From Comamonadaceae bacterium (GTDB taxonomy: Bacteria; Pseudomonadota; Gammaproteobacteria; Burkholderiales; Burkholderiaceae): DNA of 18,918 bases. Position numbers and translations under genes: made by a program. Positions 756-18,918 of this stretch are shown piece by piece; positions within the stretch are counted from its first letter, which is position 1, and each line of letters starts with the position of its first letter. The stretch is taken from positions 1-18,918 of the forward strand of contig CANCGU010000025.1 of NCBI GenBank assembly GCA_947377705.1. The letters run 5' to 3'. The notes under the pieces were generated by a model. That model had not been told where the DNA came from. It saw only the letters and a program-made list of their open reading frames with translations, and ran no database searches.

Positions 756-800
756 GTGATTCCTTCAATTGGTTAGAACAGCAACGACTTTAGCCAGCCA

Positions 801-820: not shown

Positions 821-829
821 ATATGACGA

Positions 830-863
830 TTGCTCAATTCAATATTTCAAGTATTATTGGAAT
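830..863 (+). promoter_or_regulatory. arsR promoter with overlapping ArsR operator
   Basis: TTGCTC (830-835) and TATTAT (852-857), 16 bp apart, fit a sigma70 promoter. An imperfect inverted repeat, CAATA at 840-844 against TATTG at 855-859, covers the spacer and the -10 box. This is where an ArsR dimer would block RNA polymerase. The predicted transcription start falls at or next to the arsR ATG (864), and no Shine-Dalgarno is visible, so the transcript may be leaderless. Confidence 0.5.
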
Positions 864-1205: not shown

Positions 1206-1236
1206 TTTTGTTGCTGATGGAACGAAAGGAAACCCC

Positions 1237-1668: not shown

Positions 1669-1723
1669 TTGCTGACAAGCCTCGAATTCACATCCACCAA
1701 CCACCTCTGACCTCATTCACCGC

Positions 1724-3255: not shown

Positions 3256-3301
3256 ATGACCACCGCAGCCCCAAGGTCGGCTTGAATTTCTAGAATGTGC
3301 C

Positions 3302-4368: not shown

Positions 4369-4414
4369 CATCGTGGGCTTTCAAAAAATTGTGCACCGTG
4401 TGTTGGCTAACTCA

Positions 4415-5728: not shown

Positions 5729-6626
5729 GGCTTACACCTCCCCGCACACGTTGGCGTGCAATGGCGGACACACCTTGTTGGTTGAGCATCCATTGCACCG
5801 GCTCACCCGACAACTGCACCGCCAAGCGCGTAGCTTGTTTTTTCACAGCACACACAGACGGCTGACGCAACAGTGCCAGCACCCACGGAGGCATGACATC
5901 AAAGGCGCTTTGCAAAATCAGCGCCATCCAAGGTTTGTCCCACACGTCCACAGGGTAGGCCTGAATGACTTGCAAAATCTCTTGCGCCCGCGCATCAAAG
6001 CGCAGCACATCGGCAAAGCCCAACAACTCGGCCTGCGTGGCGGCATAGGTCAATGGCAAATCAACCGCGCCCAACAAGTGCCCGATTCGGGCCATCTCTG
6101 CGATGTACTGGTCACAGGCTGGTGGCGACAACGGTTCTTTGGCCAAGTGTTGGTAAGCCGCCAAAAACGAAGTGACCTCGACCAAGTGCACCCAGCGAAT
6201 CAACTCGGGCTCATTGGCCACATAGGGTCGGCCTTGCAGATCGGTGCCACGGATGTTGGCGTGGATGGTGTTGACGCGGCGAATGACATTGAGCGCCAAG
6301 GCTTCGCTGCCATAGGTAGTGGCCGCAACAAAGTAAGCCGTGCGCCCCAAGCGCTCTTTGAGCTTGTGGCGAAAGTCCGAGTGGTCCCACACCGCAGCCA
6401 AGGCACGGGGATGCAAAGACTGCACGATGAGCGACGACAAGCCGCCCACCATCATGGCGGTGAAGTTGGCATGCACCTGCCACGCCACAGACTCTGGGCC
6501 AAACAAACCGGCATCGCCCTGCGGTGTGGCGAAGTCGGCCAGCGAAGCCGTCGAACCTGTGATGGCACGCACACGTTCTCCAATGGCATTGAGCGCCAAG
6601 GTTCTGAGTGCGTGGGCAAAAGACAT
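5721..6626 (-). CDS. MpaB/DUF2236 oxygenase-like protein
   Basis: This is a 301-residue member of the oxygenase MpaB family (DUF2236), which includes the fungal MpaB' enzyme and the heme rubber oxygenase Lcp. Seen here are FGPESVAWQVHANF (42-55), LHPRALAAVWDHSDFR (71-86), VNTIHANIRG (118-127) and ELIRWVHLVEVTSF (141-154). By analogy with Lcp, His122 might be a heme ligand; that is inference, and the substrate is unknown. The ATG at 6626 follows the six-cysteine gene stop by 20 bp. A longer reading would run through that gene in another frame and lacks family residues. There is no signal peptide. Its last codons contain the ribosome-binding site for the response regulator. It is the largest protein of a five-gene leftward operon. 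Confidence 0.85.
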   Translation of the reverse strand: MSFAHALRTLALNAIGERVRAITGSTASLADFATPQGDAGLFGPESVAWQVHANFTAMMVGGLSSLIVQSLHPRALAAVWDHSDFRHKLKERLGRTAYFVAATTYGSEALALNVIRRVNTIHANIRGTDLQGRPYVANEPELIRWVHLVEVTSFLAAYQHLAKEPLSPPACDQYIAEMARIGHLLGAVDLPLTYAATQAELLGFADVLRFDARAQEILQVIQAYPVDVWDKPWMALILQSAFDVMPPWVLALLRQPSVCAVKKQATRLAVQLSGEPVQWMLNQQGVSAIARQRVRGGVSHA

Positions 6627-6646
6627 GGTGGGCAGTGGGTGGCGGC

Positions 6647-6844
6647 TCAAGTCTTGTGATCGGCTGAGGCGCTTGTCGCCTCTGGCGCAGATGGCGCTTG
6701 GGGCCCGGTGGCATGCGCAGCAGTCACAGCATCTGACTTTGGGAAGCACATTTTTTCGCCATCCCAGCGCTGGCCACACCAGCACAAGCCGTCAGCATTG
6801 ATGATGCAGGTTCCGGTGCCGCAGCACCTTGGGTCTTCGCTCAT
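6647..6844 (-). CDS. Small six-cysteine protein, uncharacterised
   Basis: This 65-residue protein is kept because it fits a co-directional operon with 16 and 20 bp gaps and has a dense, orderly cysteine pattern. Six cysteines lie within residues 7-33: CC at 7-8, Cys13, CWC at 21-23 and Cys33, with DGLCWCGQRWDGEKMC as the core. The tail (about 36-65) is Ala/Ser/Pro-rich and looks disordered. I recall similar short proteins in betaproteobacteria annotated as hypothetical, but I cannot name a family. Binding of zinc or an iron-sulfur cluster is possible from the pattern alone. The ribosome-binding site is weak. No signal peptide is seen. Confidence 0.68.
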   Translation of the reverse strand: MSEDPRCCGTGTCIINADGLCWCGQRWDGEKMCFPKSDAVTAAHATGPQAPSAPEATSASADHKT

Positions 6845-6860
6845 AGAGGACTTTCAGGAT

Positions 6861-7148
6861 TTAACAGTTGGCGCGTCGGTGGTCGGCAATGGCGTGGTCG
6901 TCAAACTTCATGTCAGGGCTTCGCAGCGCACGGTGCTTGGTGGTCCGACCCTTCATGCGCATGCGCCAGAGCCGAAATGAGCTGGGATTGAGCTCGGCAC
7001 GCATGAGGCGAATCACCTCGGATTCGCTCAAGCCCATGCGCTCGTAAATCGTTTCAAAGGTGGTGCGGTCTTCCCACGCCATCTGAATCACGGCAGACAC
7101 ATCACCGGGGCTCAAGTTGGCAAGACGTTGGCTAGAGCTGAGTTGCAT
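6861..7148 (-). CDS. TIGR03643/DUF2805 family protein
   Basis: This is a 95-residue protein. Residues 12-72 match the small family TIGR03643 (DUF2805): LSPGDVSAVIQMAWEDRTTFE, then GLSESEVIRLMRAEL, SSFRLWRMRMKGR and TTKHRAL. The helical pattern resembles a helix-turn-helix, so nucleic acid binding is conceivable, but no function is known to me. In other bacteria I recall this family next to photolyase/cryptochrome genes, which fits the photolyase pair 5 kb away. The gap to the upstream Rrf2 gene is 29 bp, and no strong Shine-Dalgarno is visible. About 20 residues beyond the family core end in an unpaired cysteine. Confidence 0.82.
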   Translation of the reverse strand: MQLSSSQRLANLSPGDVSAVIQMAWEDRTTFETIYERMGLSESEVIRLMRAELNPSSFRLWRMRMKGRTTKHRALRSPDMKFDDHAIADHRRANC

Positions 7149-7177
7149 GATGTGCTTGACCGTCTGAATGGGAATCT

Positions 7178-7702
7178 TCAGGCCATCATCATGGAGAGCT
7201 GAAACACCGAGTTGGGTGCCTTGGGCATGAGAGGTGCCACCATGGGTTTGAACTTGAAGCGGCCCATGGTTTGCACAAACGAGCGCGCTTCTTCGTCACG
7301 CGACTCATCCACAAAATCGGCCAAGGTGAAGTTGCTGAGTGTGGCTTTGACGATTTGCTCTAAGCCGATTTCATAGCTGGCAGGCGTTGATTTGTCTTCA
7401 TGCAGGTCGTCTGTCGCCTCGGCGGGCACAGAAGACGGGGCACCCAAAGTGCATTCAAACACCGAAGCGATGTCCCATATGGAAATCAGCGAGGTGTCGC
7501 CCAAAATCATGTAGCCGCCGCCCGGACCTTTCATGGCCCCCACGATGTTGTGTGCCTTGAGCGGCTTGAGGATGTTCTCGAGGTAGGAGATCGACAAGTC
7601 GAGTCTGGGCGACAACTCGGTGGTCGTGACATAGCCTGCGTGGCGTTGACCCGCTAAGTAGACACACACCTCAATGGCGTTGATGGTTCTCTTGGAAATC
7701 AT
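7178..7702 (-). CDS. Rrf2-family transcriptional regulator without Fe-S cysteines
   Basis: This 174-residue protein starts with the Rrf2 winged helix: ATG ISKRTINAIEVCVYLAG, then SISYLENILKPLKAHNIV (recognition helix region) and the wing GPGGGYMIL near residue 60. Members such as IscR and NsrR hold an iron-sulfur cluster on three closely spaced cysteines. Here only two isolated cysteines are present (Cys13, and Cys83 in FECTLG), so cluster sensing of that type is unlikely and the signal is unknown. The C-terminal 80 residues do not match anything I recognise. AGGAG lies 8 bp ahead of the ATG. It leads a leftward operon and probably regulates itself through the repeats at 7717-7749. Confidence 0.88.
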   Translation of the reverse strand: MISKRTINAIEVCVYLAGQRHAGYVTTTELSPRLDLSISYLENILKPLKAHNIVGAMKGPGGGYMILGDTSLISIWDIASVFECTLGAPSSVPAEATDDLHEDKSTPASYEIGLEQIVKATLSNFTLADFVDESRDEEARSFVQTMGRFKFKPMVAPLMPKAPNSVFQLSMMMA

Positions 7703-7716
7703 GATTCAAACTCCTG

Positions 7717-7749
7717 TTGCGTAGAATTTTGACCTATTAATCTACGCAA
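7717..7749. repeat. Perfect 9-bp inverted repeat, candidate operator
   Basis: TTGCGTAGA (7717-7725) and its exact reverse complement TCTACGCAA (7741-7749) are separated by 15 bp, with arm centres 24 bp apart. The arms flank the predicted rrf2 transcription start. A further copy of the right arm lies at 7791-7799. The likely binder is the Rrf2 or the MerR regulator encoded on either side. Confidence 0.65.
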
Positions 7750-7767
7750 TAGCTAAATTAATTTCAA
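7739..7767 (-). promoter_or_regulatory. Predicted sigma70 promoter of the rrf2 operon
   Basis: On the minus strand, TTGAAA (7762-7767) and TAGATT (7739-7744) are separated by exactly 17 bp. The predicted start, about 7 bp downstream of the -10 box, falls between the two arms of the TTGCGTAGA inverted repeat, whose first arm overlaps the -10 box. This layout suits autorepression. Confidence 0.5.
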
Positions 7768-7787
7768 AATCACTATTTATCGACACA

Positions 7788-7800
7788 TAATCTACGCAAT
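7788..7800 (+). repeat. Second copy of 13-bp direct repeat TAATCTACGCAAT
   Basis: The same 13 bp occur at 7738-7750, 50 bp upstream. This copy begins inside a possible merR -10 box, CATAAT (7786-7791), and covers the predicted merR transcription start. A protein that reads the rrf2 operator could therefore also control the MerR-like gene. Confidence 0.55.
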
Positions 7801-7820
7801 TCCTACTCAATAACCTCATT

Positions 7821-8804
7821 TTGAACACCACTGTCCTTCCCTCGACCGCCCTGTACCGCATTGGTGCGGTGTCTAAAACCACGGGCATCCCCGTGTCCAC
7901 CTTGCGCATTTGGGAAACCCGCTATGGCGCGTTCAGCCCCGTCAAGACCGAAGGCAAGCAACGCTTGTTCGCCGAACACGATGTTTCCAAGGCGCTTTTA
8001 CTCAAACAGTTGTCGCAAAACGGCCATGCCATCAGCACCATTGCCAACCTCGACCTGGGGCAACTGCGCCGCATCAGCAACCTGCCGCACAACACACCCC
8101 AAACCTTGGCAGTACCGGGTCAGCCCGTGTCGCTGGCGGTGGTGGGCCTGAGCATGGCCAATCGCATCGAGTCCAAAAAGTTTGTCGCAGGCTTGAAGCA
8201 AAACCAAATCAAAGTCACCGACGTGTTGATCGACCTGGCCACTGCTGCCGACGCTCAATTGCCACAGCAGCCACAGGTGTTGTTGGTCAAGGTCAACACC
8301 TTGCAAACCACGGTGCACGCCGACATTGCGGCGCTGGTGGCCAAACACCAATTCGCACAAACCATCGTGGTGTACAACTTTGCGCCCGAGGCCGTGGTGC
8401 AAGCCATGAAATTTTCGGGCCTCATCGTGCGGCGCGAACCCATCTCGGACATCGAACTGGCCGAGTTGCTGCAATCGGTGTTGTTTGTCGACTCTGCGCG
8501 TGCGCAAGAGTTTGGTACCACGGGATCGGTCATTGCGGCTCGCAAGTATTCAGACGCCACCCTGAGCCGCGTGGCTGGCATTTCAACCAATGTGCTGTGC
8601 GAGTGCCCACGCCATGTGGCCGAGCTGATTGCCCAACTCGCCAGCTTTGAGGAATACAGCCAAGAATGTTTGAACCGCAACGCAGAAGACGCCCACTTGC
8701 ACGCCTATCTGCGGTCAATTTCAGGCTCTGCACGTTCACTGTTTGAAAACGCTTTAGAGAAAATTGCGGCGCATGAGGGAATTGATCTGAGCGAAGGCGT
8801 GTAG
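7821..8804 (+). CDS. MerR-family regulator with B12-domain-like sensor lacking the cobalamin motif
   Basis: This protein has 327 residues. The MerR DNA-binding domain (11-75) shows LYRIGAVSKTTGIPVSTLR and WETRYGAF...GKQRLF, the style of the CarH/LitR light-responsive group. The middle (about 104-220) has the alternating strand-helix pattern of a B12-binding domain, but the Asp-X-His-X-X-Gly cobalamin motif is absent; the equivalent stretch reads VVGLSMANRIESKK. The last 90 residues carry CECPRHVAELIAQLASFEEYS (CECP at 260-263) and look helical. The start is TTG at 7821, since upstream in-frame codons soon meet a stop and the domain begins at residue 11; no Shine-Dalgarno is visible. It diverges from the rrf2 operon and faces an uncharacterised gene. 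Role in photolyase control is inferred from position. Confidence 0.85.
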   Translation: MNTTVLPSTALYRIGAVSKTTGIPVSTLRIWETRYGAFSPVKTEGKQRLFAEHDVSKALLLKQLSQNGHAISTIANLDLGQLRRISNLPHNTPQTLAVPGQPVSLAVVGLSMANRIESKKFVAGLKQNQIKVTDVLIDLATAADAQLPQQPQVLLVKVNTLQTTVHADIAALVAKHQFAQTIVVYNFAPEAVVQAMKFSGLIVRREPISDIELAELLQSVLFVDSARAQEFGTTGSVIAARKYSDATLSRVAGISTNVLCECPRHVAELIAQLASFEEYSQECLNRNAEDAHLHAYLRSISGSARSLFENALEKIAAHEGIDLSEGV

Positions 8805-8829
8805 CCCATAACTAGCGCGAAAGCGCAAC

Positions 8830-9570
8830 CTAAGCCGTCCGCAATGCCTTCAACCATAGATGATCGATGTCACTGAGTTTGGTTTTATCAAACTCATCCG
8901 TGTGCTCCCAATAACGCCCCGACGCCACCATGTAGCCCAAGTCTTGCTCGGCCTGCAAGGCGCGTGCAACTGCTGCTGGGTCGATTAACGCGCGTTGCGC
9001 TTGCATCAGCTGTTGACACAAGTCAGGCGTTGCCAAATCACGCCTCGCCGCACGCGGAAACAACAAACGCGATTCAGGCAACTCAGACAAATTCACCACC
9101 GCACAGTCATTCGCCAGTGCCAACGCCATGAAACGCGCCGACTTGGCCTCGAGCGACTGCAAGGTCACATCCACCCGCAAAGGGTCCGGCGTACCTTGGC
9201 CATAAAAGTGACTGCTTTCGCCCAAGGCTGCCCCGTAAACCATGTCGCATCCGAAGAACGCCATCAGGTCGGGCTTCAAAGCGCCCAAAGCCCAATAGCC
9301 CGCCGTAAAAGCCATGGTGCCGCCCGCATACACAAACCCGCCAAAGCTGTTTTGCTGCGGCACAAATTCGGCAGCAGCAATCCGTTGTTGCGAAGGCTTC
9401 AAAGGCGTGGGCGGCAAACGCTCAGACGCAAAGTCTTCGGGGTACACCAAATAGTCCCAGTCAGGTGTAATCTGCCATGCGTTGTTGATGGCCACACGCT
9501 GAGCAAAGAGCGACAGGTCCCAATCTTTGGCCTGCACGGCGTCGGGTGCACTGCCTATGAGCAACACCAT
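8830..9570 (-). CDS. Uncharacterised protein, Rossmann-like (DUF115-like at best)
   Basis: This is a 246-residue cytoplasmic protein that I cannot place with confidence. ATG at 9570 is chosen over GTG at 9588 because AGAGGA sits 7 bp before it and the protein then starts directly at the first strand, VLLIGSAPDA, a glycine-containing nucleotide-binding-like loop. Other landmarks are VAINNAW (32-38 in the longer reading), DYLVYPEDF, FGGFVYAGGTMAFTAGYW and LMAFFGCDMVYG, then SHFYGQGTPDPLR. The order (GSAPD, INNAW, YAGGT, FGCDM) recalls DUF115/MptE-like sugar or nucleotide-sugar enzymes, but this is a weak analogy. No membrane segment or signal peptide is seen. It converges with the MerR gene and diverges from the photolyase operon, with which it may share an operator. 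Confidence 0.75.
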   Translation of the reverse strand: MVLLIGSAPDAVQAKDWDLSLFAQRVAINNAWQITPDWDYLVYPEDFASERLPPTPLKPSQQRIAAAEFVPQQNSFGGFVYAGGTMAFTAGYWALGALKPDLMAFFGCDMVYGAALGESSHFYGQGTPDPLRVDVTLQSLEAKSARFMALALANDCAVVNLSELPESRLLFPRAARRDLATPDLCQQLMQAQRALIDPAAVARALQAEQDLGYMVASGRYWEHTDEFDKTKLSDIDHLWLKALRTA

Positions 9571-9626
9571 TTTTAAATCCTCTGCCACGCGATGTCCGTT
9601 TCTTGAGCGCTTTTAAAACAGCAGCG

Positions 9627-9656
9627 ATCCTAGAGCCTTGCGATAGCCATTGCCAA
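9627..9656 (-). promoter_or_regulatory. Predicted promoter of the leftward uncharacterised gene
   Basis: On the minus strand, TTGGCA (9651-9656) and TAGGAT (9627-9632) are spaced by 18 bp. The -35 box overlaps the left arm of the palindrome at 9653-9667, so a protein bound there could block this promoter. Confidence 0.35.
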
Positions 9657-9667
9657 CCAAAGGTTGG
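9653..9667. promoter_or_regulatory. Palindrome CCAACC-AAA-GGTTGG between divergent genes
   Basis: This is a perfect 6-bp inverted repeat with a 3-bp centre, and it extends imperfectly on both sides (ATT...AAT). It lies 50 bp before the photolyase operon and overlaps a possible rightward -35 box TTGGAA (9664-9669), paired at 18 bp with AATAAC (9688-9693). It also overlaps the leftward -35 box. It is a candidate operator for both transcripts; the binder is unknown. Confidence 0.4.
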
Positions 9668-9716
9668 AATGCATTTCTAAAATGAAAAATAACATGCCCC
9701 GAACGAAAGACTGACC

Positions 9717-10079
9717 ATGACCACCGAAGCACGTAACGTTTTAGGCACGGCCCTGGTGCCCTGCTCTTACGACCCGCTCACGGGCTACTACCGCGACGGC
9801 TGCTGCAACACGGACGAGAACGATCAAGGCAGCCATGTGGTGTGCGCCAAAGTTACGCAAGCGTTTCTTGATTTCTCGCTGCAACGCGGCAACGATCTAA
9901 TCACCCCGCGCCCAGAACACCGCTTTGCGGGCCTCAAAGCCGGAGACCGCTGGTGCTTGTGTGCCCGCCGCTGGCAAGAGGCTTTTGACGCAGGCGTGGC
10001 CCCGACTGTGGTGCTGGAATGCACGCACACTAAAGCCCTTGAATTTGTCACGCTGGAGCAATTGCAGTCATGCGTTTGA
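9717..10079 (+). CDS. DUF2237 family protein
   Basis: This is a 120-residue cytoplasmic protein with all the marks of DUF2237: NVLGTALVPCSYDPLTGYYRDGCC (7-30), then GSHVVCAKVTQAFLDF, RGNDLITPRPEHRFAGLKAGDRWCLCARRW and a final VVLECTHTKALEFVTL. The family length is about 120-130 residues, so this is complete. Its conserved cysteines (Cys16, the CC pair at 29-30, and CLC near residue 81) hint at metal or redox chemistry, but no function is established. It is the first gene of the rightward photolyase operon. The 10-bp overlap with the next gene (ATGCGTTTGA) supports co-translation. GAAAGA before the ATG is a weak ribosome-binding site. Confidence 0.88.
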   Translation: MTTEARNVLGTALVPCSYDPLTGYYRDGCCNTDENDQGSHVVCAKVTQAFLDFSLQRGNDLITPRPEHRFAGLKAGDRWCLCARRWQEAFDAGVAPTVVLECTHTKALEFVTLEQLQSCV

Positions 10080-10750
10080 AAACACACACACTCCTCGCCG
10101 TGCTGGGCGGGTTTTTAGGAATGGAGTCGGCCATGGCGATTGAAGAACCCCGTTACGACGTGCGCATGTCGCAAGCCCCCTTTGAACTGCGCCATTACGC
10201 GCCCGTCTTGATTGCCCAAACCATCGTCGAGGGCGACATGGATGCAGCATCCAGCAAGGGCTTTCGCTTGATTGCCGATTACATCTTTGGCAACAATATG
10301 GCGGCAGGCTCAGAACCCAATGCGCAACCTAGCGCCAATCAAGCCGCCAAGATTGCCATGACCGCCCCTGTGACCGTGGAGCCCCAGTCTTCGAAAATTG
10401 CCATGACAGCGCCCGTCACACTTGAGCCGCAAACAGCGAACATGGCCGGTGCTCAAGCATGGCGCGTTCACTTTGTGATGCCCAGCCAATACACCTTGGC
10501 CATCATCCCAAAGCCCAACAACAGCGCCGTGACATTGCACGAGTTGCCGAGCAAATACATGTTGGTGCACCGTTACTCGGGCTTCAACACTGTGGCGCGG
10601 GTGCAAGAAAAAACCGACGAGACCTTGGCTTGGGCCAAGCAACAGTCTCTGAAAGTGGTGGGCACACCCCAGCTGTCGCGCTATGACCCACCTTGGACGC
10701 TGCCCATGTTCAGGCGCAACGAAATCATGGTGGAGGTGGCTGCCCCATGA
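10070..10750 (+). CDS. SOUL family heme-binding protein, exported
   Basis: This is a 226-residue SOUL/HBP-family protein. Residues 1-23 are a signal peptide (cleavage near AMA/IEE), so it should act in the periplasm or at the membrane. The mature part begins EEPRYDVRMSQAPFELRHY, as in SOUL proteins, and ends with SRYDPPWTLPMFRRNEIMVEV, the family C-terminus. The conserved KIAMTAPVT motif occurs twice (94-102 and 109-117), part of a 15-residue tandem repeat. Relatives bind heme or other tetrapyrroles; whether this one does is not visible in sequence. GGAG lies 11 bp before the ATG, inside the DUF2237 gene. The next gene starts four bases before its stop, so the operon is compact. Confidence 0.88.
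   Translation: MRLKTHTLLAVLGGFLGMESAMAIEEPRYDVRMSQAPFELRHYAPVLIAQTIVEGDMDAASSKGFRLIADYIFGNNMAAGSEPNAQPSANQAAKIAMTAPVTVEPQSSKIAMTAPVTLEPQTANMAGAQAWRVHFVMPSQYTLAIIPKPNNSAVTLHELPSKYMLVHRYSGFNTVARVQEKTDETLAWAKQQSLKVVGTPQLSRYDPPWTLPMFRRNEIMVEVAAP
10349..10438 (+). repeat. 45-bp tandem duplication inside the SOUL gene
   Basis: Two adjacent 45-bp units encode KIAMTAPVTVEPQSS and KIAMTAPVTLEPQTA. The proteins differ at only three of 15 positions, whereas the DNA differs at many third positions. This points to an old duplication kept by selection rather than a recent slip. Confidence 0.7.
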
Positions 10751-11445
10751 ACACGCAACTTCCAACTTCACAAAAAGCGTGTATCGAACTGCGCGACCTT
10801 CACCTGAACGCCAACATTGGCACCTACGGCCCCCATGATGTGGTGCCCGATGCCCACATGCTTGACCTCACGCTGTGGTTGTCGCCCGCGTTGGTGTTGA
10901 TCGCGCAAGACGGCATGTCTCATGTGTTTGACTACGACCCCTTGGTGGCCGAGATCGACCGCCTCGCCGCTGATGGCCACTACGAAACGCAAGAGCGCCT
11001 CGTCACGCGCATCGTCCATGCCTGCGCGGCCTACCGCGAAATAGAAGCCCTGGACATCGGCTTGTGCAAGTCACCCGTGCGCCAAGGCTCGGGCGCCCTG
11101 GGCGTGCGCGTGTCGGTGGATGCCCACACGCTCAACACCTTGCGCCACATTGAATCCACAGACGTGCAACAGGCGATGACTGCCCTCTCGGGGTGGACGC
11201 TAGACACGCACCCACAGCATCACACGTCTTGCCTGTCCAAAAGCTGGACGCTGCCTAGCTTCGAGGCGGCAGTGGCACGGTTCAACCAAATCGCCCAACT
11301 CGCCCAAACCCAAGACCACCACCCCGAAGTGCTGTCGAGCTACACGCAGTTACAGGTGCGCATTTGGACCCATGATGCGGCAGGCCTGACGCACAAAGAT
11401 TTCACCCTCGCCCAAGCCATCGACCAACTGAGCACCGCCCCATGA
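10747..11445 (+). CDS. FolB-like dihydroneopterin aldolase fused to pterin-4a-carbinolamine dehydratase
   Basis: This 232-residue protein carries two pterin domains. Residues 11-134 follow dihydroneopterin aldolase (FolB): CIELRDLHLNANIGTYG, FDYDPLVAEIDRL, ETQERLVTRIVHAC and the lysine motif LCKSPV (Lys108). Residues 138-229 are a 4a-carbinolamine dehydratase (PCD): LPSFEAAVARFNQIAQLAQ, the catalytic HHPEV (191-195), then WTHDAAGLTHKDFTLA. In the aldolase part, the catalytic glutamate (Glu22 in Staphylococcus aureus FolB) aligns with His30 in my hand alignment, so aldolase activity is doubtful. ATG at 10747 has GGAGGT 9 bp before it. The stop overlaps the next start (ATGA). Beside two photolyase genes, a role in pterin supply or recycling is inferred. 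Confidence 0.85.
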   Translation: MNTQLPTSQKACIELRDLHLNANIGTYGPHDVVPDAHMLDLTLWLSPALVLIAQDGMSHVFDYDPLVAEIDRLAADGHYETQERLVTRIVHACAAYREIEALDIGLCKSPVRQGSGALGVRVSVDAHTLNTLRHIESTDVQQAMTALSGWTLDTHPQHHTSCLSKSWTLPSFEAAVARFNQIAQLAQTQDHHPEVLSSYTQLQVRIWTHDAAGLTHKDFTLAQAIDQLSTAP

Positions 11446-11789
11446 AGTACCTCCAAAAACTCGATGGCTTTCAACGCTCACCCGCGGGCTTGGAGTGGCA
11501 AATTTGGAAAAAGTTGCACATTATTTTGGCCGTGGGCACGGCACTACCGCTGCTGGCCAGTGCCGGTGCATATGTGCTGGATGGGCTGGACACCGCCACA
11601 CAAAACGCACGCGCGGTGGAGCAGTTTTTTTATGTGATGCTCGGCGTGGTCATGCTGCACTGGACACTGGTGCTGACGCTGGCCATTGGCTGCGTGATCG
11701 TGATGTTGATGAAAGGCCCTGCCTACGTGGCCGACGCCTACGAGATGGAGGAGCTGCCCCTTGGCTCAGAAAAATACCTTCAAAGGTAA
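11442..11789 (+). CDS. Two-helix membrane protein, uncharacterised
   Basis: This is a 115-residue protein I do not recognise. Two hydrophobic segments are plain: about 26-46 (IILAVGTALPLLASAGAYVL) and about 63-90 (FFYVMLGVVMLHWTLVLTL then IGCVIVMLM). A short polar linker lies between them, and the tail is acidic (DAYEMEELPLGSEK). A His (residue 72, MLHWT) lies within the second helix. It starts four bases before the upstream stop and overlaps the following DUF2256 gene by 29 bp. It is clearly part of the photolyase operon; a role as membrane anchor or partner is possible but unsupported by any motif. Confidence 0.75.
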   Translation: MKYLQKLDGFQRSPAGLEWQIWKKLHIILAVGTALPLLASAGAYVLDGLDTATQNARAVEQFFYVMLGVVMLHWTLVLTLAIGCVIVMLMKGPAYVADAYEMEELPLGSEKYLQR

Positions 11790-11928
11790 CAAGCAAAGCC
11801 TGCCCAGCAAGCCTTGCAAAACCTGCGGGCGAGACATGACATGGCGCAAGGCTTGGGCCAAAAATTGGGCGCAGGTGTTGTACTGCTCGGACGCTTGCCG
11901 CAAAAATAAATCAGCCACGACCTCATGA
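11761..11928 (+). CDS. DUF2256 zinc-ribbon microprotein
   Basis: This 55-residue gene starts at TTG with GGAGG 9 bp upstream and lies partly inside the previous gene in another frame, so simple gene callers may miss it. The protein matches DUF2256: KPCKTCGRDMTWRKAWAKNW (17-36), then VLYCSDACRKNK. Four cysteines (Cys19, Cys22, Cys42, Cys46) form a CX2C...CX3C zinc-ribbon pattern. The family is known for small size and, as I recall, for sitting next to photolyase/cryptochrome genes, as it does here. Its stop TGA overlaps the next ATG (ATGA), so it is translationally linked to the photolyase-like gene. Function is unknown; nucleic-acid or protein binding is inference. Confidence 0.85.
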   Translation: MAQKNTFKGNKQSLPSKPCKTCGRDMTWRKAWAKNWAQVLYCSDACRKNKSATTS

Positions 11929-13502
11929 GTTACGAGCTGGTTTGGTTCAAGCGTGACCTGCGCTGGCAAGACCATGCGGCCTTGGCCCAAGCGGCACAGC
12001 GCGGGCCTGTGCGCTGCATTTATGTGGTGGAGCACGAACTGTGGCTGCAGCCCGACGCGGCCTTGCAGCACTTTGAGTTTGTGCGTGAATCCTTGCAAGC
12101 CCTCGATGAAGCGCTGCGTTTGCAAGGCGGCTGCGTTGAAGTGCACACGGGTGAACTGCCCGACGTGCTGAGCCGCATTTGGAGCGAAGCCCCTTTTCGC
12201 CAACTGCACGCACACCAAGAAACTGGCAACGGGTTTACCTATGCACGCGACCTGAGGGTGGGCGCATGGTGCCAAGCGCACAACGTGGGGTGGCACGAGT
12301 ACCCACAGTTTGGCGTGGTGCGCAAACTGAAAAACCGCAACCTGTGGCAACCCGCTTGGGAGCGGCACATGGCCGAGCCTATGCAAGATGTGGGTGAATT
12401 GCGGTTTTGGCATTCCAACGCATTGCCCCGGTCTTGGTGCACGCCTTTGCACATGCAAGCCCCTGCACACCTGGAACACAACCCACCGCTGCGTCAACGC
12501 GGTGGGCGCCCCTTGGCCGTAGACACTTTGCACAGTTTTTTGCATGCCCGCAGCTTGGGCTATCGCGGCGGTATTTCGTCGCCGTTGTCGGCGCCCGATG
12601 CGTGCTCGCGTTTGTCGGCTTACTTGGCGTGGGGCTGCATCAGCATGCGCGAGGTGGTGCAGCACACGCGGGCACACATCGCGCAGCTTCCCCCCAGCGC
12701 CAGCCGTCACCGCGCAGGCTTGACGGGATTCATCAGCCGTTTGTATTGGCACTGCCACTTCATCCAAAAACTCGAGAGTGAACCGGCCATCGAATGGCAA
12801 AACATGCACCGCGGCTACGACGGTTTGCGTGAACACGATTTCAACGAAGCCCACTTCGAAGCCCTCAAAGCCGCGCGCACAGGCTGGCCCATGGTGGACG
12901 CGTGTGTGACCATGCTGCGCGAAACGGGCTGGCTGAACTTTCGCATGCGCGCCATGCTGGTGTCGGTGGCAGCCTACCCGCTGTGGCTGCACTGGCGGCC
13001 CGTGGGCGAGTGGCTGGCCACGCAGTTTTTAGACTATGAGCCAGGCATTCACTGGAGCCAGTTGCAAATGCAATCGGGCACCACAGGCATCAACACCACA
13101 CGCGTGTACAACCCCATCAAACAAGCGCAAGACCACGACCCCCATGGCCGCTTTGTGCGGCAGTGGCTGCCTGCCCTGCGCCAAGTGCCCGACACCTGGC
13201 TGTTTGAGCCTTGGCTCATGCCGCACACCATGCAAGCGCACGTCGGTGTCTTTGTGGGCAACGAGCTAGACCGCGCATTACCCGAGCCCGTGGTCGACTT
13301 GGCGCAAGCCACACGCGAGGCCAAACAGTTACTGCACAGCCGACGCCAAACCGACGAGGTCAAAGCCGCCAAAAAAGCGGTAGTGGACAAACACGCCTCG
13401 CGTAAAAACTGGGGCAGAACAACACGCAACAACGCAAGAGCCTCAGCCGACAAAGCACAAGCAGCTCAAGCGGCCAAGGCACAACTTAGTTTTGATTTTT
13501 AA
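11925..13502 (+). CDS. Photolyase/cryptochrome-like flavoprotein
   Basis: This is a 525-residue member of the photolyase/cryptochrome superfamily. It begins YELVWFKRDLRWQDH (antenna-domain Rossmann start, 3-17). The FAD domain shows SPLSAPDACSRLSAYLAWG (219-237), ARTGWPMVDACVTMLRETGW (317-336) and LDYEPGIHWSQLQMQSG (369-385). The last replaces the canonical DWELGVNNGNWQW region, and the usual HNRLR is NFRMR, so it belongs to a side branch and may be a photosensor rather than a CPD repair enzyme. Residues from about 460 to 525 form an Ala/Lys/Arg-rich tail. It starts four bases before the DUF2256 stop, with no clear ribosome-binding site. Repair activity is undecided. Confidence 0.88.
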   Translation: MSYELVWFKRDLRWQDHAALAQAAQRGPVRCIYVVEHELWLQPDAALQHFEFVRESLQALDEALRLQGGCVEVHTGELPDVLSRIWSEAPFRQLHAHQETGNGFTYARDLRVGAWCQAHNVGWHEYPQFGVVRKLKNRNLWQPAWERHMAEPMQDVGELRFWHSNALPRSWCTPLHMQAPAHLEHNPPLRQRGGRPLAVDTLHSFLHARSLGYRGGISSPLSAPDACSRLSAYLAWGCISMREVVQHTRAHIAQLPPSASRHRAGLTGFISRLYWHCHFIQKLESEPAIEWQNMHRGYDGLREHDFNEAHFEALKAARTGWPMVDACVTMLRETGWLNFRMRAMLVSVAAYPLWLHWRPVGEWLATQFLDYEPGIHWSQLQMQSGTTGINTTRVYNPIKQAQDHDPHGRFVRQWLPALRQVPDTWLFEPWLMPHTMQAHVGVFVGNELDRALPEPVVDLAQATREAKQLLHSRRQTDEVKAAKKAVVDKHASRKNWGRTTRNNARASADKAQAAQAAKAQLSFDF

Positions 13503-13512
13503 AAGCCCACAC

Positions 13513-15060
13513 ATGACCACCCCACGCAAACGCCTCATCCTCATCTTGGGCGATCAACTCGATGAAAACGCCTCCGCCCTGGCCGACTTCGACCCAGCGC
13601 AAGACACCGTGTGGATGGCCGAGGTGCTGGAAGAGTCCACGCACGTCCCCTCGTCCAAGCAACGCACCACGGTTTTCCTGAGTGCCATGCGCCACTTCGC
13701 CGCGCACCTGCAAGCCCGCGGCTGGCCCATGGTGTACAGCCAGCTCGACGACGCAGACAACACGGGCACCTTGGCCGGTGAGCTGAGCAAAGCCATTGCC
13801 CAAGTGCAACCCCAGCTCTTGGTGATGACCGCCCCCGGCGATTGGCGTGTGTTACAAAGTCTGCGTGCGGTGGCACAACAGCATGATTTGCCACTGGAAA
13901 TCAAAGACGACACGCACTTCTTCAGCACGGTGCGCGACTTTGCCGCGCATGCCGAAGGACGCAAACAGCTGCGGCTTGAATATTTCTACCGCGAGCTACG
14001 CCAGAAAAATGGCATTCTGATGGCGGGCAAAAAACCCATAGGCGGCCAATGGAACTTTGATGCCGACAACCGAGGCAGCTTTGGCAAACAAGGCCCCGAC
14101 TTGCTGCCCTCACCCACACGCGTGACTCCCGACGCCATCACCCAAGACGTGATGCGTTTGGTGAGTGACAAACTCGCGAATCACCCCGGCTCCATCACAC
14201 AGTTTGGCTGGCCTGTCACACGTCAGCAGGCTCTGGTGGCTCTGGATGAATTTATCACCCACCGACTGCCCAGCTTTGGGTTGTACCAAGATGCGATGTG
14301 GGAAGGCGAAGTGTGGCTGTACCACTCGCACTTGTCGTGCGCCTTGAATTTGAAGCTACTTAACCCGCGCGAGGTGTTGGCTGCCGCGGAGACAGCTTTT
14401 CACAAAGGCCACGTCCCGCTAGAAGCGGTGGAAGGTTTTGTGCGGCAAATTTTGGGCTGGCGTGAATACGTGCGTGGCATTTACTGGACGCACATGCCCG
14501 AGTACGCCAAAGGCAATGCCCAGCAAGCGCACGAACCGCTGCCCGAGTTTTATTGGACGGGTGACACAGAGATGGCCTGCTTACGCGATGCCATCACACA
14601 AACCCTGCAACATGGCTATGCGCATCACATTCAACGCTTGATGGTGACCGGTCTTTACGCCTTGCTGTTGGGGGTGGAACCCAAACAAGTGCACCAGTGG
14701 TACCTCGGCGTGTATGTAGATGCGGTGGAATGGGTAGAGCTGCCCAACACGCTGGGCATGAGCCAGTTCGCCGATGGTGGGCTGATGGCCAGCAAGCCTT
14801 ATGTGGCCAGTGGCAAATACATAGACCGCATGAGCAACCATTGCAAAGGTTGCCGCTTCAACCCTGCCGAATCCATAGGCGACAAGGCCTGCCCCTTCAC
14901 CACCTTGTATTGGGATTACCTAGACCGACACGCCGACATGCTGGCCAAAAATCCGCGCATGTTGATGCAACTGAAAAACCTCAACCGCCTCACGCCTGAG
15001 CAACGCGAGGCCATTGCCACGCAGGCACAAACACACCGCACCCAATCACCCGCTCAATAA
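13513..15060 (+). CDS. phrB: Iron-sulfur bacterial cryptochrome/photolyase (FeS-BCP)
   Basis: This 515-residue protein belongs to the FeS-BCP group (Agrobacterium PhrB, Rhodobacter CryB), which repairs (6-4) photoproducts or acts as a light sensor using FAD, a ribityllumazine antenna and a [4Fe-4S] cluster. RLILILGDQLDENASAL opens the antenna domain, LEYFYRELRQKNGILM and GGQWNFDADNR are group motifs, and SHLSCALNLKLLNP leads the FAD domain. Cys356, Cys444, Cys447 and Cys460 have the same spacing (88, 3, 13) as the PhrB cluster cysteines 350, 438, 441 and 454. ATG at 13513 begins at the first strand; a TTG 21 bp upstream is less likely. It is the last gene of the operon, 10 bp after the flavoprotein. 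The gene symbol is by family. Confidence 0.93.
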   Translation: MTTPRKRLILILGDQLDENASALADFDPAQDTVWMAEVLEESTHVPSSKQRTTVFLSAMRHFAAHLQARGWPMVYSQLDDADNTGTLAGELSKAIAQVQPQLLVMTAPGDWRVLQSLRAVAQQHDLPLEIKDDTHFFSTVRDFAAHAEGRKQLRLEYFYRELRQKNGILMAGKKPIGGQWNFDADNRGSFGKQGPDLLPSPTRVTPDAITQDVMRLVSDKLANHPGSITQFGWPVTRQQALVALDEFITHRLPSFGLYQDAMWEGEVWLYHSHLSCALNLKLLNPREVLAAAETAFHKGHVPLEAVEGFVRQILGWREYVRGIYWTHMPEYAKGNAQQAHEPLPEFYWTGDTEMACLRDAITQTLQHGYAHHIQRLMVTGLYALLLGVEPKQVHQWYLGVYVDAVEWVELPNTLGMSQFADGGLMASKPYVASGKYIDRMSNHCKGCRFNPAESIGDKACPFTTLYWDYLDRHADMLAKNPRMLMQLKNLNRLTPEQREAIATQAQTHRTQSPAQ

Positions 15061-15091
15061 AAAGCCCCCCAAGCTTGAAGGCTTGGAGGGC
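15059..15091 (-). terminator. Rho-independent terminator of icd
   Basis: On the minus strand, an 11-bp stem (GCCCTCCAAGC with GCTTGGGGGGC, one mismatch) and a 6-nt loop are followed by TTTTT. It ends transcription of icd 27 bp after the stop. The T-run overlaps the end of the convergent photolyase gene (its TAA is 15058-15060). On the plus strand no T-run follows, so it would work poorly for phrB. Confidence 0.85.
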
Positions 15092-15103
15092 GTGGAAGGC
15101 CTG

Positions 15104-15118
15104 AGCCTCAGTGAGGCT
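15104..15118. repeat. Short inverted repeat at the icd stop codon
   Basis: AGCCTCA-G-TGAGGCT is a perfect 7-bp inverted repeat with a 1-bp centre, touching the icd stop. It lies between the stop and the terminator and may stabilise the icd mRNA 3' end. The tiny loop makes the RNA hairpin lose one or two pairs. Confidence 0.4.
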
Positions 15119-17349
15119 TAGACGCTAGCCAAAGCTGCGTTGAACGTGGCGCTTGGGCGCATCACGGCTTCGAGCTTCTTGGCATCGGGCAGGTAGTAAC
15201 CGCCGATGTCTACGGGCTTGCCTTGCACCGCATTGAGTTCGTCCACGATCTTCTTCTCGTTGTCGGTCAGATTCTTCGCCAAAGGTGCGAACTTGGCAGC
15301 CAAGTCAATGTCCTCGGTTTGCGCGGCCAACTCTTGGGCCCAATACATGGCCAAGTAGAACTGGCTGCCACGGTTGTCGAGCTGACCTGTTTTGGGTGAT
15401 GGGTTTTTGTTGGTGTCCAACAATTTGCCGGTCGCTGCATCCAAGGTCTTGGCCAATACAGTGGCTTTGGCGTTGCCGTTTTTCAGACCCATGTCTTCGA
15501 AAGACACGGCCAAGGCCAAGAACTCACCCAGTGAATCCCAACGCAAGTGGTTTTCTTCCACCAACTGTTGCACATGCTTTGGCGCAGAACCGCCAGCGCC
15601 TGTTTCGTACATGCCGCCACCGGCCATCAAAGGCACGATGGACAACATCTTGGCCGAGGTACCGAGTTCCATGATGGGGAACAAGTCGGTCAAGTAGTCA
15701 CGCAAGATGTTGCCGGTCACCGAGATGGTGTCCAAGCCACGGCTCACACGCTCCAAGGTGTAACGCATGGCGCGCACTTGAGACATGTGCTCAATTTGCA
15801 GGCCTTGGGTGTCATGGTCTTTGAGATACAGGTCGACCTTTTTGATCAACTCGTTCTCGTGTGGGCGGTAGGGGTCCAACCAGAAGATGGCAGGCATGCC
15901 CGAGTTGCGTGCGCGGGTCACAGCCAACTTCACCCAGTCACGGATGGCCGCGTCTTTGACTTGGCACATACGCCAGATGTCGCCTTCTTCCACGTTTTGG
16001 CTCAACAAGACTTCGCCTGTGGCCAAGTCGGTGATGTTGGCCACGCCGTCTTCTTGAATTTCGAACGTTTTGTCGTGTGAACCGTATTCTTCGGCTTGCT
16101 GCGCCATCAAGCCCACGTTAGGCACGGTGCCCATGGTCTTGGGATCGAAGTTGCCGTGCCACTTGCAGAAGTTGATCATCTCTTGGTAGATACGGGCAAA
16201 AGTCGACTCAGGCATCACAGCCTTGGCGTCCTTCAAGCGACCATCGGCACCCCACATCTTGCCGCCGTTGCGAATCATGGCAGGCATAGAAGCGTCCACG
16301 ATGATGTCGTTAGGCGAATGGAAGTTGGTGATGCCTTTGGCCGAGTCCACCATGGCCAACTCTGGGCGGTGCTCGTGGCACGCATGCAGGTCGCGCTTGA
16401 TTTCGTCTTGCTGGCTTTGTGGCAAGGTGGCAATCTTGTTGTACAGATCGGCCATGCCGTTGTTCACGTTCACGCCCAAATCGTCAAACAATTTGGCGTG
16501 CTTGGCGAAGGCTTCTTTGTAGAAAATCTTCACGCAGTGGCCGAACACGATGGGGTGAGACACCTTCATCATGGTCGCTTTGACGTGCAAAGAGAACATC
16601 ACGCCTGTTTTGTGCGCGTCTTCGATTTCTTTTTCGTAGAACTCGACCAAGGCTTTTTTGCTCATGAACATGCTGTCGATGATTTCTTTGTCGAGCAAAG
16701 AAACTTTGGGCTTCAACAGAATGGTTTTGCCGCTCTTGGTGATGAGTTCCATCTTCACGTCACGGGCTTTGTCCAAAGTCAAAGACTTTTCACCGTGGTA
16801 GAAGTCGCCGTGGTGCATGTGTGATACGTGCGAGCGAGAGGCTTGGCTCCACTCGGCCATGCTGTGTGGGTTTTTACGCGCAAACTCTTTCACAGCGCGG
16901 GGAGCCCGGCGGTCAGAGTTACCTTCGCGCAAAACGGGGTTCACCGAGCTACCGATGCACTTGGCATAACGGGCTTTGATGGCTTTGTCTTCGTCGGTGG
17001 TGGGCGCATCTGGGTAATCAGGCAAGGCATAGCCTTTCGATTGCAACTCTTTGATGGCGGCGGTCAACTGGCCCACAGACGCGCTGATGTTAGGCAGCTT
17101 GATGATGTTGGCTTCTGGCTTCAAAGTCAGCTTGCCCAAGTCGGACAAGTTGTGTGACACGCGCTGAGCTTCGGGCAACAGGTCTGAAAACTCACCCAAG
17201 ATGCGGGTCGCCACAGAGATGTCGCTGGACACCACGTCGATGCCAGCAGGTGCGGCAAAGGTACGAATGATTGGCAAGAACGAAGCAGTCGCCAACAAGG
17301 GGGCTTCGTCAGTCAGGGTGTAAACAATTTTGGATTTTTCAGCAGCCAT
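15118..17349 (-). CDS. icd: NADP-dependent isocitrate dehydrogenase, monomeric type
   Basis: This TCA-cycle enzyme converts isocitrate to 2-oxoglutarate and CO2 and makes NADPH. At 743 residues it has the size of the monomeric class (about 740), not the 415-residue dimeric class. The substrate motif [17 protein letters not shown] (134-150) gives Ser134, Asn137, Arg141 and Arg147, with the same spacing as the Azotobacter vinelandii enzyme. Other marks are [35 protein letters not shown] and [16 protein letters not shown]. The start at 17349 agrees with the family N-terminus ([16 protein letters not shown]), with a weak GAGA-type ribosome-binding site. It is a single-gene transcript with its own terminator. 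Some annotations call this class icd2. Confidence 0.96.
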
Positions 17350-17545
17350 TGCTCGGTCTCATTCTCTGTTTGGATAGGGTGAAAAAATACAGGTCAGGGC
17401 CTGCATTATCCACGGCACTTTAGCCCACCCGCCCCTGCGCTTTGCTTACACCCTTTGCTCAGCCCAATCCCTTATTCCGATTTGGCATATATGTAGAACA
17501 AAGAAATCGTTGGTTTCGGCATAAAGAGCACCTACAGTCCACGCC
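17350..17545. other. Divergent intergenic region between icd and the TSUP gene
   Basis: These 196 bp must carry the promoters of both genes. GATAAT on the minus strand (about 17405-17410) is a fair -10 box for icd, but I find no good -35 box. On the plus side the AT-rich stretch around 17486-17515 (CATATATGTAGAACAAAG) is where a sulfur regulator such as CysB might bind, but I can recognise no certain motif. No RNA gene or terminator is seen. Confidence 0.3.
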
Positions 17546-18337
17546 ATGCAAGATTTTGGTTTCGTATTCGCTGGTTTTTTTGTGGGCTTGGTCGTGGGCT
17601 TGACCGGGGTGGGCGGCGGCTCCCTGATGACGCCCATTTTGATTTTCTTCTTTGGCGTCAAGCCCTACATGGCAGTCGGCACCGATTTGCTATTTGCGGC
17701 CTTCACCAAGGCTGGCGGCACGTTCAGCTTTGCCCGTCAGCGCATCGTGCCTTGGCGCGTGGTGATGGCCCTGTGCGCAGGGAGTATTCCCGCCTCAGGT
17801 CTCACGCTTTGGGTGCTCCACAACATTGGCCCCTCAGACCCCGCCGTCGAAAAAGTCATGAAGCTCACGCTGGGTCTGGCCCTGCTGCTGACCGCCAGCG
17901 CCATGCTGTACAAAGTGATTCGCGGCAAACAAGCCCCTGTGGTGCTGGCTGAAGAAAACTTACGCCAAGCCACAGAGCCCGGCCACTGGGCCTTGCCCGT
18001 CTTGTTTGGCGCGGCCATTGGTACCTTGGTGACCCTCACGTCCGTGGGTGCTGGCGCCATTGGCGTGACGGTGCTTATGATCCTGTACCCACAGTTGCCA
18101 CTGTCACGCATCGTGGCGGCTGACATTGCCTATGCCGTGCCATTAACTTTGGTGGCCGGCTTAGGGCACGCTTCGTTAGGGTCGGTCGATTGGCCTTTGT
18201 TGGGCTTGTTGCTCGCAGGCTCCTTGCCCGGCATTTGGGTGGGTTCTCGCCTGATGCACAAAACGCCTGAGCGTGTGATTCGTTCCATTCTTTCTGTGTT
18301 GCTGGCATGGGCTGGCAGCAAATTGGTTTTTGCTTAA
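17546..18337 (+). CDS. TauE/SafE (TSUP) family sulfur transporter
   Basis: This is a 263-residue membrane permease of the TSUP family (TauE/SafE), which move sulfite, sulfonates or related anions. About eight helices fall in two similar halves. The first opens FVGLVVGLTGVGGGSLMTP (13-31) and the second carries TLVTLTSVGAGAIGVTVL, the two glycine-rich repeats of the family. AVGTDLLFAAFTKAGG is also typical. The gene ends 21 bp before a sulfite reductase gene, so one operon and a substrate of sulfite or sulfate are likely, though inferred from context. ATG at 17546 starts at the first helix; no strong ribosome-binding site is visible. Confidence 0.92.
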   Translation: MQDFGFVFAGFFVGLVVGLTGVGGGSLMTPILIFFFGVKPYMAVGTDLLFAAFTKAGGTFSFARQRIVPWRVVMALCAGSIPASGLTLWVLHNIGPSDPAVEKVMKLTLGLALLLTASAMLYKVIRGKQAPVVLAEENLRQATEPGHWALPVLFGAAIGTLVTLTSVGAGAIGVTVLMILYPQLPLSRIVAADIAYAVPLTLVAGLGHASLGSVDWPLLGLLLAGSLPGIWVGSRLMHKTPERVIRSILSVLLAWAGSKLVFA

Positions 18338-18358
18338 TTTTTTCGTTTGAGTTCTTAG

Positions 18359-18918
18359 ATGTATCAATACACCGCCTTCGATCAAGAGTTTGTCAAAGCA
18401 CGCGCTGCGCAGTACCGCGACCAACTCACCCGCAACTTGGCTGGCAAATTGGCCGATGACGATTTCCGCCCCTTGCGTTTGCAAAATGGCTGGTATGTGC
18501 AACGCTACGCCCCCATGCTGCGCGTGGCCGTGCCTTACGGTGAACTCAACAGCGCGCAGTTGCGCGTGTTGGCCCAAATTGCCCGCGACTACGACACCCC
18601 TTCGGCTGAGTTGATTGAACGCGCGCAAAGCACGCAAGACAAGATTGGTGGCACTTCATCCAGCTCAATTACTGCTCCGAAGCTGACCACCAACTACGGC
18701 CACTTCACCACCCGTCAAAACGTGCAGTTCAACTGGATTCCCTTGGACAAAAGCGCCGACGTGATGGAGCTGTTGGCCAGCGTCAACCTGCACGGCATTC
18801 AAACCAGCGGCAACTGCATTCGCAACATCACCAGCGACGAGCGTGCCGGCATTGCGGTGGACGAAGAAGTCGACCCACGCCCCTACGCCGAAGTGCTGCG
18901 CCAGTGGAGCACCTTGCA
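18359..18918 (+). CDS. cysI: Nitrite/sulfite reductase, hemoprotein subunit (partial, 3' end beyond window)
   Basis: The first 186 codons of a siroheme-dependent sulfite reductase for assimilatory sulfur reduction are seen; the gene leaves the window. The sulfite reductase ferredoxin-like half-domain is clear: FRPLRLQNGWYVQRYAPMLRVAVPYG (residues 37-62), TNYGHFTTRQNVQFNWIPL and LHGIQTSGNCIRNITSDERAGI, the motif just before the siroheme domain. The order and wording match cysI-type nitrite/sulfite reductases of Burkholderiales; nitrite reductase cannot be ruled out without the C-terminal half. The cluster cysteines and siroheme domain lie outside. It follows the TSUP gene by 21 bp in the same direction, forming a sulfur operon. 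Confidence 0.9.
   Translation, partial: MYQYTAFDQEFVKARAAQYRDQLTRNLAGKLADDDFRPLRLQNGWYVQRYAPMLRVAVPYGELNSAQLRVLAQIARDYDTPSAELIERAQSTQDKIGGTSSSSITAPKLTTNYGHFTTRQNVQFNWIPLDKSADVMELLASVNLHGIQTSGNCIRNITSDERAGIAVDEEVDPRPYAEVLRQWSTL

Follow-up and report, generated by a model that had tools for sequence, protein, structure and literature searches.

MerR-type regulators standing near photolyase genes have been described in Pseudomonas, Burkholderia and Vibrio cholerae (PMC9758184, PMC5241685). Among the LitR regulators, class II proteins take part in the induction of phrB, cryB and folE by light in Pseudomonas, class III proteins come mainly from Burkholderia, and classes II to V are without all or part of the B12-binding domain, according to the excerpts of PMC9758184 used here. 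The DUF2237 family has been linked to phototrophy: 72% of prokaryotes that have photosystem genes and 66% of those that have rhodopsin genes carry it, versus 17% overall (excerpts of PMC5932025). DUF2256 was counted only among frequent small proteins in the part of PMC11796252 consulted, and no paper holding both terms, DUF2256 and photolyase, was found in the open-licence section of PMC (subscription journals and preprints lay outside this search). Here we describe a run of seven genes from a Comamonadaceae bacterium (contig CANCGU010000025.1, positions 1 to 18,918; this whole stretch of 18,918 nucleotides is called the window). The run lies at positions 9717 to 15060 and encodes two photolyase-family flavoproteins, g6 and g7, preceded by g1 to g5. 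Our reading, held with moderate confidence, is that these genes form a modular cluster for light response and photorepair in Comamonadaceae that probably live in freshwater, and that the cluster most likely belongs to the regulon of a LitR-like MerR protein.

Organization of the seven-gene run

The genes of the run are the following:

9717..10079, + strand: g1, DUF2237 protein, 120 amino acids (aa) (Pfam PF09996, E=2.6e-54)
10070..10750, + strand: g2, SOUL-family protein, 226 aa (Pfam PF04832, E=1.5e-39)
10747..11445, + strand: g3, FolB-like domain fused to pterin-4a-carbinolamine dehydratase (PCD), 232 aa (Pfam PF02152 and PF01329)
11442..11789, + strand: g4, small protein with two hydrophobic segments (by eye), 115 aa (no Pfam family over cut-off)
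11761..11928, + strand: g5, DUF2256 protein, CxxC...CxxxC, zinc-ribbon-like, 55 aa, TTG start (Pfam PF10013, E=1.1e-18)
11925..13502, + strand: g6, photolyase/cryptochrome-family flavoprotein of a divergent clade, 525 aa (Pfam PF03441 and PF00875)
13513..15060, + strand: g7, FeS-BCP / prokaryotic (6-4) photolyase, 515 aa (Pfam PF04244, best PDB match 9hnk)

A preliminary description of this DNA had reported seven same-strand genes joined by five overlaps and one 10-bp gap. Recomputed coordinates gave exactly this, with overlaps of 10, 4, 4, 29 and 4 bp and the gap between g6 and g7, and the family names proposed there agree with the Pfam and PDB matches. The TTG start of g5 is aligned with ATG and GTG in two related loci, L014 and L015, so that the 29-bp g4/g5 overlap is common to them. 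The same proteins are encoded in relatives, which argues that the arrangement of g1 to g7 goes beyond chance.

Between positions 9580 and 15200, promoter-like matches were at the level of shuffled sequence (2, versus a mean of 1.8), and 15 terminator-like matches were counted versus a mean of 8.5 (sd 3.1). The strongest of these (15091-15064, minus strand) would end a convergent isocitrate dehydrogenase gene lying 3' of g7.

The partner families recur around g6 in varied combinations

Relatives of g6 were encoded at 452 places (one genome per species scanned), of which the best 80, with 64-93% identity, were kept; 73 of these loci had at least 1 kb upstream and 75 at least 1 kb downstream. Most came from records titled Comamonadaceae or Burkholderiales, together with Limnohabitans and Polynucleobacter; many were metagenome bins, and we take the bacteria to be freshwater ones. 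Partner families were found by profile searches, which short or divergent genes could escape.

DUF2256 lay directly upstream of g6 in 26 loci, and in 17 the next gene downstream was g7. Families found no more than 5 kb from g6 were DUF2237 (18 loci), g7 (18), DUF2805 (17), MerR (16), Rrf2 (16), CRY-DASH (14), the histidine-phosphatase family (13), FolB (10), SOUL (8), PCD (8) and g4 (7). DUF2805 was directly downstream of g6 in seven loci and is another small photolyase-linked family. This recurrence in varied combinations shows the set to be modular and the order in the window to be its local form.

All seven families stood uninterrupted in the window order at three loci (L010, L012 and L015), and the FolB-PCD fusion occurred only in L010 among these. 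FolB and PCD were separate genes in five of the six closest loci that reach them (L009, L011, L012, L014 and L015; the PCD of L015 was confirmed by Pfam). L009 and L014 hold the seven families with opposite-strand umuC/umuD-type genes (Pfam IMS and Peptidase_S24) between FolB and PCD; L011 has the same insertion but no g4 match. L008, the closest relative, lies on a short contig whose sequence begins at DUF2256. The gene order, whose conservation had been made a test of the preliminary description, is thus kept in a few close relatives and reshuffled further out.

The clusters of L009 (6589-9154), L011, L013 and L014 have umuC/umuD-type genes inside them, so that SOS repair is joined to photorepair there. 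An open reading frame of L009 was read by eye as UvrC/Cho-like; it had no Pfam match.

A MerR regulator and tandem repeats upstream

Upstream of the run, the window carries:

7821..8804, + strand: MerR regulator, LitR-like, 327 aa (Pfam MerR_1 and MerR only)
7178..7702, - strand: Rrf2-family regulator, divergent from MerR (Pfam PF02082)
7717..7810, no strand: putative operator, inverted TTGCGTAGA/TCTACGCAA plus tandem 11-bp repeat CTACGCAATTCCTACTCAA (7792-7810), from sequence comparison

A divergent Rrf2/MerR pair, at most 1.2 kb apart, was found in 18 loci besides the window, and the space between the two genes carries TCTACGCAA-type repeats. With up to one mismatch, CTAYKCAANNNCTAYKCAA occurred 21 times in 88 sequences (1.32 Mb), versus once in one mononucleotide shuffle. 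Eighteen of these occurrences precede MerR (window included), one lies directly before an eight-gene DUF2237 operon in L012 and two are elsewhere. CarH sites are described as tandem 11-bp repeats.

The MerR protein gave no Pfam match to a B12-binding domain. It matched CarH (5c8d) over residues 7-69 only, with E=2.3e-5; the match to GlnR (4r4e) was better (1.7e-6). A relative in Burkholderia anthina, which is not the characterised LitR of B. multivorans, shares 33.9% identity over 95% of the length and has folE, DUF2878, DUF3429 and genes for a sigma factor, an SDR and a photolyase nearby. Another, in Caballeronia (31.9% over 99% of the length), is beside folE and near a sigma factor. The sigma-E motif TGATC-N18-CGTAT, taken from the available part of the V. 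cholerae study (PMC5241685), was tried and dropped: it occurred 80 times in the loci and window versus 88 times in one shuffle.

DUF2256, DUF2237 and the link to phototrophy

DUF2256 was present in 66 of 299 sampled Pseudomonadota genomes and over cut-off in 13 of 114 sampled genomes of the class. Forty-two loci were inspected, 13 from the class sample and 29 from the Pseudomonadota sample (the best 30 of 68, one being shared). Nineteen of the 42 loci had a photolyase-family gene no more than 1.5 kb from DUF2256, versus one of 46 loci for DUF2237 (17 and 29 from two samplings; Fisher p=7e-7, for genomes that are not independent). Around DUF2256 genes with no photolyase nearby, the clusters displayed looked mostly like overlapping reading frames.

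The solved relatives of g1, 2lq3, 4ioh and 3ush, bear molecule names that give no function. In the 1.3-Mb genome of L170, DUF2237 and PCD are adjacent on one strand (1207-1860), with no photolyase nearby.

Phototrophy was compared across 200 Burkholderiales genomes, with g6 called present at 38% identity or more (39 genomes) and ten genomes with 27-33% counted as lacking it; kinship is uncorrected in all these comparisons. g6 was found in 20 of the 27 genomes with a photosynthetic reaction centre versus 19 of the 173 without (p=2e-11), and DUF2237 in 25 of 27 versus 61 of 173 (p=1e-8). DUF2237 was present in 30 of the 39 g6 genomes and in 56 of the 161 others; among genomes without a reaction centre the two still co-occurred (12/19 versus 49/154, p=0.008). 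For 37 genomes chosen from the 80 g6 loci, 20 had a reaction centre and one a rhodopsin. A reaction centre is present in the genome of L008; none was seen in that of L010.

g6 belongs to a divergent clade with replaced photolyase residues

Pfam assigns g6 to FAD_binding_7 (1.5e-57) and DNA_photolyase (3.7e-19), and its best solved relatives are distant (2e0i, E=1.6e-32). The clade is large: a protein search gave at least 8000 candidates with E≤1e-40, among which other photolyase classes are perhaps included. In phages, ten records were recovered with 21-29% identity, none close to the g6 clade. An AlphaFold model built with 16 close sequences had a pLDDT (confidence score) of 66.9 and a poor FAD region.

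A MAFFT alignment joined 79 close members (the window and 78 loci), six distant members from plasmids, E. coli photolyase and 13 DASH proteins. In E. coli photolyase (literature numbering), we take E274, W277, N341, M345, N378 and W384 to be lesion or flavin contacts. The columns of E274, N341, M345 and N378 hold R, F, A/S and H in all 79 close and all six distant members. W277, R342, R344 and D372 are retained in all 85, and W359 in 79 of 79 close and five of six distant members. The W384 column holds L, M or H in close members and V, I, C or F in distant ones, and Trp is not reliably present at the W306 column. All 13 DASH controls retained E274, W277, N341 and N378, and 12 of them W384. The W382 column is uninformative because MAFFT placed a gap there in g6 and controls alike; an ungapped hand reading against 2e0i sets L380 and M382 of g6 opposite W382 and W384. 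In g6's own numbering, R272, F339, H376 and M382 are invariant or nearly so, and an equivalent of W384 is absent.

g6 thus departs from the class I cyclobutane pyrimidine dimer (CPD) photolyase residue set, and these replacements make it unlikely to be a canonical CPD photolyase, although it could still repair DNA. Assignment to CRY-DASH was rejected (TIGR02765, 127.8 bits, under the cut-off of 317). Marine Synechococcus Phr1 was considered as a homologue and set aside, being likened to a V. cholerae cryptochrome in the excerpt of PMC9426592 consulted. From its sequence, g6 is possibly a new photolyase-like enzyme. A bolder proposal, tentative and on balance doubtful, is that it represents an uncharacterised photolyase/cryptochrome class with unlike chemistry (repair or sensing), a dedicated DUF2256 partner, and DUF2237 in the same light response.

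g7 and the remaining genes

g7 is similar over its full length to solved FeS-BCP / prokaryotic (6-4) photolyases: Pfam DPRP gave 1.5e-75, and 9hnk was matched over residues 8-510 with E=8e-163, together with 3zxs, 4dja and 7ykn. The cysteines of its MAC, CKGC and ACPF motifs, four in all, are aligned with those of 9hnk and presumably bind the iron-sulphur cluster. Four conserved cysteines are described for FeS-BCP proteins in the available part of PMC9426592. By family, g7 looks like a (6-4) photolyase.

The N-terminus of g2 is signal-peptide-like by eye, and the protein matched heme-binding protein 2 weakly; it may bind porphyrin outside the cytoplasm.

g3 unites Pterin_4a (1.3e-24) and FolB (3.8e-10) in a single protein. 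PCD has an HHP signature, usually with E, K, D or H four residues before the first H. The C-terminal part of g3 carries the motif and scores 86.5 bits (cut-off 26), has Q at that upstream position, and stays under the NCBIfam equivalog cut-offs (best 69 against 80). Among ten distinct sequences the motif is DHHPE in nine and NHHPE in L170. For the N-terminal part, assignment as FolB proper is not supported (TIGR00525, 20.2 bits versus a cut-off of 72); it scores 40.7 bits with Pfam FolB (cut-off 31.8) and, from its sequence, classifies as FolB/FolX-like and divergent. The stretch FDYDPL, the motif TQE and the pattern K-x-PV recur in the FolB parts of relatives; the L015 row of that alignment was extracted out of frame and is an artefact. 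Methenyltetrahydrofolate (MTHF) is the antenna of DASH and class I photolyases. Together the two domains may supply reduced pterin for an antenna or other uses.

In alignments of g4 the motif MKGPAYVADAY is conserved, and its match to Pfam MgtE is weak (17.5 bits, cut-off 27.6). Homologues were found in ten of 300 Burkholderiales genomes, and the nine of these ten loci that were inspected showed no consistent partner; plasmids gave no match.

A possible scar of a CRY-DASH gene

In L014 and L015 the gene 5' of DUF2237 encodes a CRY-DASH protein (TIGR02765, 433 and 426 bits; five DASH proteins of relatives scored 401-436), and contig L010 opens with bases that match the 3' end of the L014 CRY-DASH gene. 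The corresponding feature of the window is:

9642..9716, + strand: g1 leader, like the L014 sequence upstream of the CRY-DASH start to about 9696, then like the CRY-DASH/DUF2237 spacer

Searching the window with the L014 DASH protein returned g6 as sole match (26%). This junction pattern makes CRY-DASH loss in the lineage of the window the simpler reading, and the leader a possible scar of the lost gene. CRY-DASH is also absent at this place from L009, L011 and L012, so that gain in the other loci stays an alternative to loss.

The segment 9642-9696 has GATAGCCATTGC and a CCAACC-GGTTGG palindrome in common with the CRY-DASH promoter region of L014. Exact copies of GATAGCCATTGC occurred in the window, L009, L011 and L014 only; with one mismatch allowed, 15 copies were counted versus 7 in a shuffle. 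The palindrome CCAACCnnnGGTTGG, 5' of g1, is exact in the window and L014 and was discarded as a candidate site, its one-mismatch count being at shuffle level (18 versus 16, each site counted on both strands).

Other features of the window

Two further genes lie upstream of the run:

6861..7148, - strand: DUF2805 protein (Pfam PF10985)
8830-9588, - strand: reading frame of 252 aa (g252), no Pfam match, placement kept in L009, L011, L012, L014 and L015

Further upstream, a 113-aa reading frame (ArsR-like by guess) is followed by DUF6428, low-molecular-weight phosphatase and SBF transporter genes by Pfam (864-3255), a row that in our estimation resembles an arsenic-resistance operon. Genes for DUF2878, DUF3833 and a histidine phosphatase follow at 3302-5005, and a DUF2878-DUF3833 pair is directly 5' of DUF2256-g7 in L089. 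The minus-strand gene at 5721-6785 encodes an MpaB/rubber-oxygenase-family protein with a homologue directly upstream of g6 in L071 and L072. Neither a tRNA nor an Rfam match above the gathering score was found in the window.

Discussion

Gene content, gene order, their recurrence, the conserved repeats and the residue changes of g6 were read directly from the genomes compared. From there we infer that light induces the genes and that they are co-transcribed, as well as every enzyme activity and the roles of g1 to g5. The MerR protein, possibly joined by the divergent Rrf2, would repress promoters bearing the tandem 11-bp repeats in darkness; light would lift this repression, and the products would then act side by side. 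g7 would repair (6-4) photoproducts, and g6, with a presumably remodelled lesion pocket, might handle a different lesion or serve as a sensor. The FolB-PCD fusion would form or restore reduced pterins that could serve as antenna or cofactor. By binding heme or porphyrin outside the cytoplasm, SOUL would limit photosensitised damage, the DUF2256 zinc ribbon may work with photolyase-family proteins, and DUF2237 would be a widespread protein of light-exposed lifestyles.

The preliminary description had proposed a single light-repair or light-sensing system. A light-related role is supported by the neighbourhoods, the MerR gene with its tandem repeats, the links to phototrophy and the literature. 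A fixed seven-part machine is unsupported, given the three uninterrupted loci, the separate FolB and PCD genes, the umuC/umuD-type insertions and a DUF2237 that is usually unlinked. Several observations weigh against even the looser reading of a light-regulated module. g6 had none of the tested partners in its run at 20 of 80 loci, 23 of 42 DUF2256 loci had no photolyase within 1.5 kb, DUF2237 had one nearby at a single locus of 46, and one of the ten g4 loci was near a photolyase. On the regulatory side, the window has no tandem 11-bp repeat before g1, the opposite-strand g252 gene separates MerR from g1, and around a Methylomagnum relative of the MerR protein (37% over 65% of the length) neither photolyase nor folE is annotated within 7 kb. 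The class II LitR site TGTACA-N12-TGTACA was not enriched either (9 with up to three mismatches versus 6.75 expected). TGTACA alone occurred 6 times versus 2.4 expected (6 of 200 shuffles reach 6), always inside long reading frames.

Another explanation is that the run is a chance or genome-streamlining operon of unrelated stress genes, in which only the photolyase and DUF2256 form a functional pair. It would account for all seven families being uninterrupted in only three of 80 loci and for DUF2237 and g4 being scattered elsewhere. We nevertheless hold it to be rather unlikely: the same families join g6 repeatedly and in differing orders, MerR-type repeats stand before the L012 operon, and DUF2237 co-occurs with g6 across genomes, also among those without a reaction centre (kinship uncorrected). 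A cluster for light sensing instead of repair, with g6 as a cryptochrome-like sensor, the small proteins relaying its signal and g7 as a passenger, appears quite improbable to us. The R, F, A/S and H that replace E274, N341, M345 and N378 in all 85 aligned members would suit such a sensor, as would the Synechocystis DUF2237 knock-out, which moved less in a phototaxis assay (excerpts of PMC5932025). However, a Pfam output domain is absent from all seven proteins, and the CRY-DASH and umuC/umuD-type genes in the clusters of relatives are repair genes by family.

On the favoured reading, a modular cluster of light response and photorepair, the DUF2237, DUF2256 and g4 families and the divergent photolyase clade gain one testable common setting, light. 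The closeness of a photolyase at 19 of 42 DUF2256 loci is a direct lead to the function of that family. If freshwater photoheterotrophs are abundant, the repair kit they carry is important to their survival in sunlit waters.

Compared with known systems, the cluster appears as a variant on the light clusters of LitR type and contains a member of a divergent photolyase clade that is worth testing. The LitR clusters of Pseudomonas and Burkholderia likewise have MerR near photolyase, cryB, pterin genes of folE/folX type and proteins of unknown function (excerpts of PMC9758184); the window differs in its gene set (DUF2237, SOUL, FolB-PCD, g4, DUF2256 and g6) and in its putative operator-like repeat. 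The MerR-phr operon of V. cholerae is blue-light induced and, like the window, combines a MerR-like gene, a photolyase and a gene of unknown function; it comprises three genes, VCA0056-VCA0058, and DUF2237, SOUL and pterin genes are not named for it in the part of PMC5241685 consulted. In Synechococcus sp. PCC 7335, a UV-B inducible operon has two photolyase-family genes with overlapping frames, and just these two (excerpts of PMC9649867). In ybgA-phr of E. coli K-12 a small gene overlaps the photolyase start by 4 bp, as g5 overlaps g6, with DUF1722 instead of DUF2256 and a canonical CPD photolyase. DUF2237 as the phototrophy-linked protein is the same family as g1, and a photolyase operon is not mentioned for it in the available portion of PMC5932025. 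Finally, g7 aligns nearly full length to 9hnk, 3zxs, 5kcm and 4dja and showed no distinctive feature beside known FeS-BCP proteins, among which we count PhrB of Agrobacterium and CryB of Rhodobacter.

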